Part shown: in pieces, positions 9,830 through 60,431 of the stretch | Layout of the letters: each line of letters starts with the position of its first letter | How positions within the stretch are numbered: the first letter of the stretch is position 1 | Assembly (NCBI GenBank): GCA_016124935.1 | Contig: WGMS01000007.1 | Span: forward strand, 178,472 to 242,471 | Length of the DNA stretch: 64,000 nt | Origin: a bacterium | GTDB lineage: Bacteria > Cyanobacteriota > Vampirovibrionia > Obscuribacterales > Obscuribacteraceae | Reading direction: 5' to 3' | Notes under the pieces: generated by a model | What the model was told of the DNA's origin: nothing | Seen by the model: only the letters and a program-made list of their open reading frames with translations | Database searches by the model: none | Program-made: the position numbers and the translations under genes

Positions 9830-10044
9830 TCGTCAATCCTGTTTCTGTCCTAGCTCTGTCCTGAAAGGTGATTGCTCTTTGTAAATAGATAATACCGTGA
9901 TATTTCGGACCTTGCCAGAATAATGTCAGGGGGGAGGAACATTTATTGTAAACAAGCGTCTTTTAATACTGTTCTGTGATTAGAGAGATTTTGCCGGGGT
10001 CTTCGCAACAATTGTTTCTCTCGAAAATGAACGAAAGGTTAATA

Positions 10045-10222
10045 CCAGCGGGAATTTCCGGATAATCGGATACAAATATACATGCCCGCTGGGCACGCAT
10101 CGCAGCATCTCCAGACGAGAGGTACCAGGGATGGAACCTGTTGGGGCAGCACCAACGCTGCGGACATTTTACAGAAGATGGACGATTCGCAGATTCCCCG
10201 ACTCTTAGAGTTGGGGATTTTT
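10045..10222 (+). promoter_or_regulatory. Candidate structured 5' leader / transcription attenuator upstream of glmU
   Basis: CCAGCGGG(10045-10052)/CCCGCTGG(10085-10092); AGGTaCC/GGaACCT (10120-10139); competing pairings of GTTGGGG(10140-10146); terminator at 10195-10222. Confidence 0.45.
10195..10222 (+). terminator. Rho-independent terminator in the glmU leader
   Basis: TCCCCGACTC-TTA-GAGTTGGGGA followed by TTTTT (10-bp stem, one G-U). Confidence 0.7.
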
Positions 10223-10259
10223 GCCATTTCTAAACTCAGGGACACAGGTAAATTGATCA

Positions 10260-47763: not shown

Positions 47764-48057
47764 TCTATATTTGCTTTATATCTTTTAGGCTCGATTGGTG
47801 GAGGGAGTCGTGAACCGGCTAATAAATGAGCCTACATCGAGTGGATATGCGCTTTATGGCCAGTCGAGCATGAACATATTTCAACCAAGGAATGTTGTTC
47901 TACTTGAATTCGGGCGAATAGCGCTACCGGTGGTGGTTGCTTCTCTCGGTATGTGTTCGGCATATACCTTTGCGGTAATTGCAGTTTGTTCCCACGAGTG
48001 TTAACTTTTAAGCACCTGATCAAAAGGGAAATCACACACATACCATAGTACTCGGCA

Positions 48058-48185
48058 ATTTACGGAGCCCTAGATATAGTGGCTTGGTGGGGGAAGTGTG
48101 GTGCGAAGCCACCGCTGTCCCGCAACTGTAATCGGACTATATACATATAAATGTAGAACCGGAAGCCAGACTACCCACTCGAGTA
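48058..48185 (+). promoter_or_regulatory. Cobalamin riboswitch
   Basis: GCCACCGCTGTCCCGCAACTGTAATCGG (B12 box CGCTGTCCCGCAACTGTAA) and downstream GGAAGCCAGACTACCC; precedes nrdA. Confidence 0.92.
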
Positions 48186-48255
48186 CTGAGGGCGCTTACT
48201 CTTCGAGGACCATGAGAGAACGTCTTGAGAACGGATTAACTTTACTGTTGCGTCC

Positions 48256-60035: not shown

Positions 60036-60431
60036 GGGGGCGTTTAGATTCGACAGGGTTGTTTGGTCACAGGCTGCAGGTCGAGGGTGCTGTTCCCTCG
60101 TAAATCAACAAGCAAACAAATATAGATGCCGATAATAACGTCATCGCTTTCCCGGGCGCTAAGCCCGCGCTCCGCGCTGCTTAACTAGATTAAGTAGGGA
60201 AACTCGCTCGGAGCTTTGCTACCCGCTCCGACTCGGGTCAACCATGGTGGCTGCCATCGTGCCAAATTAGCGGTTGATAGCACGGTCTAAGATATAATCG
60301 CGAACCCGGTTGGTTGTTCTGGCCGACTTCAGCGGTTTCTTCGGAATAACTGAGGTAATGCAGAACTAAGCTTGTAGATGCATGTTTCCTTTCTTCTTTG
60401 GACGCGAGTGCGATTCTCGCCGCCTCCACCA
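60036..60431 (+). ncRNA. ssrA: Transfer-messenger RNA
   Basis: 5' GGGGGCGTTTAGATTCGACAGGG and 3' GAGTGCGATTCTCGCCGCCTCCACCA; tag ORF GCC(60128)...GCTGCTTAA encoding ADNNVIAFPGAKPALRAA. Confidence 0.95.

Follow-up and report, generated by a model that had tools for sequence, protein, structure and literature searches.

A cloverleaf RNA family in non-photosynthetic relatives of cyanobacteria, with a probable standalone small RNA gene upstream of glmU

The 64,000-nt stretch of DNA analysed here, called the window, carries a conserved cloverleaf RNA upstream of glmU. We consider it probable (roughly 0.7) that positions 10084 to ∼10222 are a standalone small RNA gene with a product of roughly 135–140 nt. 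The structured RNA is, as judged by sequence comparison, a new family, undescribed with respect to the Rfam library. The family is nearly order-wide, multicopy and strongly conserved, in environmental bacteria that are non-photosynthetic relatives of cyanobacteria. The initial annotation of this DNA had proposed an undescribed attenuator or riboswitch in the glmU leader. An undescribed structured RNA, as far as Rfam goes, is indeed there, but the attenuator or riboswitch reading is not supported, given the RNA's own promoter-like sequence and terminator, a glmU that mostly has its own −10 element, and copies of the RNA at unrelated genes. A leader-like hairpin and a terminator before a gene need not mean an attenuator.

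The conserved unit is a cloverleaf of 67–75 nt (window 10101–10162 plus flanks in the alignment of 42 copies), in which the stem P1, CGCAG/CUGCG, encloses the three hairpins P2, P3 and P4 with invariant loops (Table 1). The consensus of these 42 copies has the loops CAGN in P2, A-GGGA-U in P3 and GGCAGCA in P4, followed by RNCAWUU. Blastn searches of relatives likewise limited the conservation to ∼70–80 nt (window 10098–10172). This stretch recurs in the majority of genomes from the window genome's own family and also in the order's second family, frequently two or more times per genome. The hairpin AGGTaCC/GGaACCT and the pairing GTTGG/CCAAC, both proposed earlier, exist and correspond to P3 and P4, respectively. 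An 8-bp closing stem formed by CCAGCGGG (10045–10052) and CCCGCTGG (10085–10092) was also proposed. It is present in the sequence, but is absent from the other copies and was not confirmed as functional; as its 5′ arm lies between the upstream box and the −10 element, upstream of the inferred start, the stem is probably not part of the transcript. At the position of the short 5′ hairpin several relatives have different hairpins and others have none.

Table 1. Positions of the RNA, its putative promoter and terminator, and glmU in the window.
Feature	Position	Strand	Remarks
Promoter-upstream box GAACGAAAGGTTAA (consensus AAACGAAAGGTTAA)	10029–10042	+	present in 32 glmU-type copies
−10 element TACAAAT of the RNA's own putative promoter	10071–10077	+	TACAAAT/TATAAAT kept at fixed spacing from the box
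Short 5′ hairpin UGCCC-GCU-GGGCA before the cloverleaf	10083–10095	+	from sequence
P1 5′ strand CGCAG	10101–10105	+	partner 10158–10162; 99% of cells paired
P2 hairpin CUC-CAGAC-GAG	10109–10119	+	middle pair U-A, C-G, A-U or G-C among copies
P3 hairpin AGGTACC..GGAACCT with nearly invariant A-GGGA-U loop (GNRA type)	10120–10139	+	6 of 7 pairs changed on both sides
P4 hairpin GUUGG-GGCAGCA-CCAAC, 5 bp, 7-nt loop	10140–10156	+	arms 10140–10144 and 10152–10156; three outer pairs changed on both sides
P1 3′ strand CUGCG	10158–10162	+	partner 10101–10105; 99% of cells paired
Unpaired conserved 3′ flank, RNCAWUU	10163–10171	+	CA nearly invariant
Linker AGAAGAUGGACGAUU	10173–10187	+	common to a subset of glmU-type copies, also L099, L111, L117 and L119
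Intrinsic terminator, hairpin 10195–10217 then T5	10195–10222	+	38 nt before the glmU ATG
glmU, ORF of 477 aa	10260–11693	+	named from N-terminal motif and similarity to collected homologs

Covariation in relatives had been named as a check on the fold, and it speaks clearly for the cloverleaf. Among the 42 sequences used for model building compensatory changes occur in 10 of the 20 pairs, together with strong conservation, and 97.8% of the pairing cells are paired, compared to 88.3% for shuffles and at most 43% for slid partners. Double changes were seen in 14 of 20 pairs among 102 distinct model matches, in an alignment that is itself fitted to the model. RNAalifold run on the 42-copy alignment gave the same helices as those drawn by eye, and the top eight covarying column pairs by mutual information are all helix pairs. 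P1 is almost invariant and therefore contributes little covariation. As G-U and U-G pairs are common, the RNA is read from the plus strand. The region 10030–10240 folds at −74 kcal/mol (z = −4.8), with 0 of 200 shuffles as low, and the lowest-energy structure of the predicted window transcript folded alone lacks P1.

Covariation was also observed between the loops of P2 and P4 (model columns 18/25 with 52/56, and 20 with 57), perhaps reflecting a contact like that of the tRNA elbow, with two subfamilies as a confounder. We did not retain it as a tertiary contact, since the shared ancestry of the two subfamilies may explain the signal. The linker between cloverleaf and terminator can be read as AUG GAC GAU, with stops that differ in place.

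The box upstream of the RNA resembles repeats spaced ∼11 bp apart, as seen for regulators of the OmpR/PhoB type, and its regulator is inferred to be of the OmpR type. From the start of the box to the −10 element there are 41–46 nt in 26 of the 32 glmU-type copies (42–44 nt in 22), unlike the distance from box to cloverleaf, which varies between 59 and 97 nt. Judged from the −10 element, the RNA would start at the cloverleaf itself or at the short 5′ hairpin before it, which for the window suggests a start at ∼10083–10086. Copies linked to a MerR-like gene instead have a sigma-70-like promoter, mostly with a CTGACA-like −35 element, a spacing of 17 bp and TANNNT (mean best score 8.9, compared to 7.7 in shuffles). 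A promoter of its own, as an independent small RNA gene would have, is thereby predicted from sequence. Shared upstream sequences before L131, L134, L142, L150 and L154, and before L121, L126 and L155, suggest that there are more promoter classes.

The RNA also appears to have a terminator of its own. The hairpin with TTTTT that had been placed about 40 nt before glmU is present, and an intrinsic terminator was found within 85 nt behind 63 of 100 copies (28 of 32 for the glmU type); the rate in shuffles was 10%, and of 100 upstream flanks 3 had one. Both the sequence of the terminator and its distance are free to vary, and the arms are wholly different between genera. The earlier proposal of mutually exclusive pairing between GTTGGGG and the terminator arm CCCCGAC must be seen in this light: it is possible in the window, but not conserved. 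Comparison of terminator arms with their own cores gave 821, against 797.6 ± 14.4 with the cores of other genomes, and 12 of 200 permutations were as high. As this is not significant, antiterminator pairing was rejected as a family feature, and may occur in the window genome and a few relatives.

Between terminator and glmU start an extended −10 element (TGNTANNNT) is present in 13 of 21 genomes (10% in shuffles), and some other glmU spacers carry plain TATAAT-like sites. The spacer in the window has no extended −10, only weak sites resembling TAAACT or TAAATT.

The preferred reading, a standalone small RNA gene, could work as follows. An OmpR-type response regulator would bind the box at 10029–10042 and drive transcription from ∼10083–10086. 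The transcript would open with the short 5′ hairpin, continue through the cloverleaf and end with the terminator hairpin, before glmU, which would be transcribed from a separate promoter. That loops and junction are so well conserved points to a specific partner; most likely the cloverleaf would serve to bind a protein, a metabolite or target mRNAs. Paralogues with other promoters are found elsewhere in the same genomes.

Covariance model matches were found in 51 of 53 genomes of the order, namely 48 of 50 in the family of the window genome and all three in the sister family, usually with 1–4 copies per genome (range 1–6). Outside the order, neither the 382 genomes drawn from the class nor the 386 drawn from the phylum gave a convincing match. 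Weak matches in other families of the phylum were treated as chance, and the best of them (L164) falls inside an open reading frame. In the phylum sample the exact sequence pattern matched only the two copies of the window genome. Photosynthetic reaction-centre genes are absent from the window genome and the relatives tested, and present in other members of the phylum. The host would accordingly be a cyanobacterial relative without photosynthesis, probably of the Obscuribacterales.

The initial annotation saw no match to the glmS ribozyme or another riboswitch, in agreement with the Rfam 15 scan, in which no family matched 10030–10240 at gathering cut-offs and none convincingly at relaxed E-values. 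Nor did any Rfam family match the copies in 20 loci that carry them, and no described regulatory RNA was found in the literature for this order.

The copies occur in several genomic settings. In one group, the RNA lies between the gene of a matrixin-like protease (Pfam PF00413) on the other strand and glmU, with glmU on the same strand behind ∼28 copies in two families. A second group (n = 17) lies directly behind a MerR-like gene, and the remaining copies are dispersed. Genus g23 has kept the protease neighbor, but has a minus-strand response-regulator gene in place of glmU. Many of the downstream minus-strand ORFs may be spurious antisense frames, and we therefore used only copies with clearly real neighbors. 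The second copy of the window genome G000 (L031:4957–5035; contig C11:79956–80034) is flanked by two minus-strand genes, and no plus-strand ORF longer than 101 aa starts within 1.4 kb of it. In this copy the entire cloverleaf sits inside a stem, ACCGGAC/GTCCGGT, with TTTT after it.

Other copies lack terminators. Tandem copies of this kind lie among small same-strand genes, four in L153:1522–5702 and two in L039:4822–5434. Those at L132:1574–1653, L136:1510–1589 and L137:4555–4633 lie a few tens of nt before start codons of genes named universal-stress-protein-like from sequence resemblance, with a Shine-Dalgarno sequence between copy and start codon. Not counting the sister family f2, about a dozen terminator-less copies have a start codon no more than 100 nt away. 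Copies in 5′ UTRs are a minority, generally more divergent and lower in score.

Clearly less likely than the standalone gene is a broader alternative, an order-specific tRNA-shaped module, with P2 and P4 loops that possibly dock like the two loops of a tRNA elbow. It would be a ligand or protein sensor used in free small RNAs as well as in 5′ UTRs, including control of glmU in one family. As in tRNA and the tRNA-like modules of Y RNAs, one stem closes three hairpins, of which the third has a stem of 5 bp and a loop of 7 nt. Unlike a tRNA, the window RNA has a P1 of 5 bp and a GGGA tetraloop on the middle arm, and it lacks a T-loop consensus and a CCA end; neither ARAGORN nor Rfam RF00005 called a tRNA at the cloverleaf.

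Somewhat less likely is a cis-acting riboswitch or attenuator, in which a ligand-sensing cloverleaf would choose between termination at 10195–10222 and read-through into glmU. The terminator directly 3′ of the conserved fold and the highly conserved, aptamer-like loops would suit such a role, as would the link to glmU. A same-strand glmU behind so many copies in two families is more than expected of an unrelated neighbor; one ancestral arrangement is, however, sufficient to explain this conserved link. In sister family f2 the copies lack a terminator and run straight into glmU, whose start is 24–26 nt past the end of the model; there the RNA would belong to the glmU leader. Against a cis role in general are the alternative pairing, which is not conserved, the −10 element of its own that glmU has 3′ of the terminator in the majority of genomes, the freely varying terminator sequences and distances, and the many copies that have no same-strand gene downstream or an unrelated one. 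The sister family and the copies in 5′ UTRs leave this reading a minority share of the probability, and a cis role is possible for glmU in f2 and for some of the 5′ UTR copies.

Rather improbable is a portable protein- or metabolite-binding cloverleaf, present in free small RNAs that act as sponge or sensor and in 5′ UTRs, e.g., of universal stress proteins. It would account for the same core being intergenic where terminators are present and before start codons where they are missing (L132, L136, L137, L153 and L039), and for invariant loops and junction next to varying helix bases. The 5′ UTR copies are, however, mostly divergent and low-scoring, and almost every carrier lacks CsrA, the protein hinted at by the A-GGGA-U loop.

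A mobile or repetitive intergenic element (REP- or MITE-like) without a function of its own is very improbable: although the family is multicopy, intergenic and sometimes tandem, there are just 1–6 copies per genome, the orthologous location is kept over many genera, compensatory changes and specific promoters and terminators are present, plasmids and phages gave no match, and no viral contig had the exact pattern.

The standalone small RNA gene can also be compared with known RNAs. The Yfr2 family consists of short standalone RNAs that are almost universal in a large cyanobacterial group (PMC6778093). The window RNA would similarly be short and standalone, in a family of related RNAs that is near-universal in its group. 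By description it is set apart from Yfr2, being a four-helix cloverleaf of a non-photosynthetic order without an Rfam match. The glmS ribozyme-riboswitch (RF00234) and GlmY/GlmZ are likewise RNAs tied to an amino-sugar gene. The window RNA differs in having no Rfam match and in adjoining glmU rather than glmS, with a link that is positional and absent in many copies.

The A-GGGA-U hexaloop of P3 matches the CsrA consensus ARGGAU. Compared to CsrB/RsmZ, each copy of the window family has one such loop, and csrA is missing in most carriers: none was found in G000, and a search of 39 genomes from the order turned it up in just 2. A CsrA-binding small RNA was rejected for most carriers on this ground. 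The SRP RNA of G000 is at another locus and 6S-like matches are at other loci in many relatives (none in G000), so both identities were rejected. Elsewhere in the window Rfam identified a tmRNA at 60036–60431, not called by ARAGORN, and, above the gathering score, a cobalamin riboswitch at 48044–48196.
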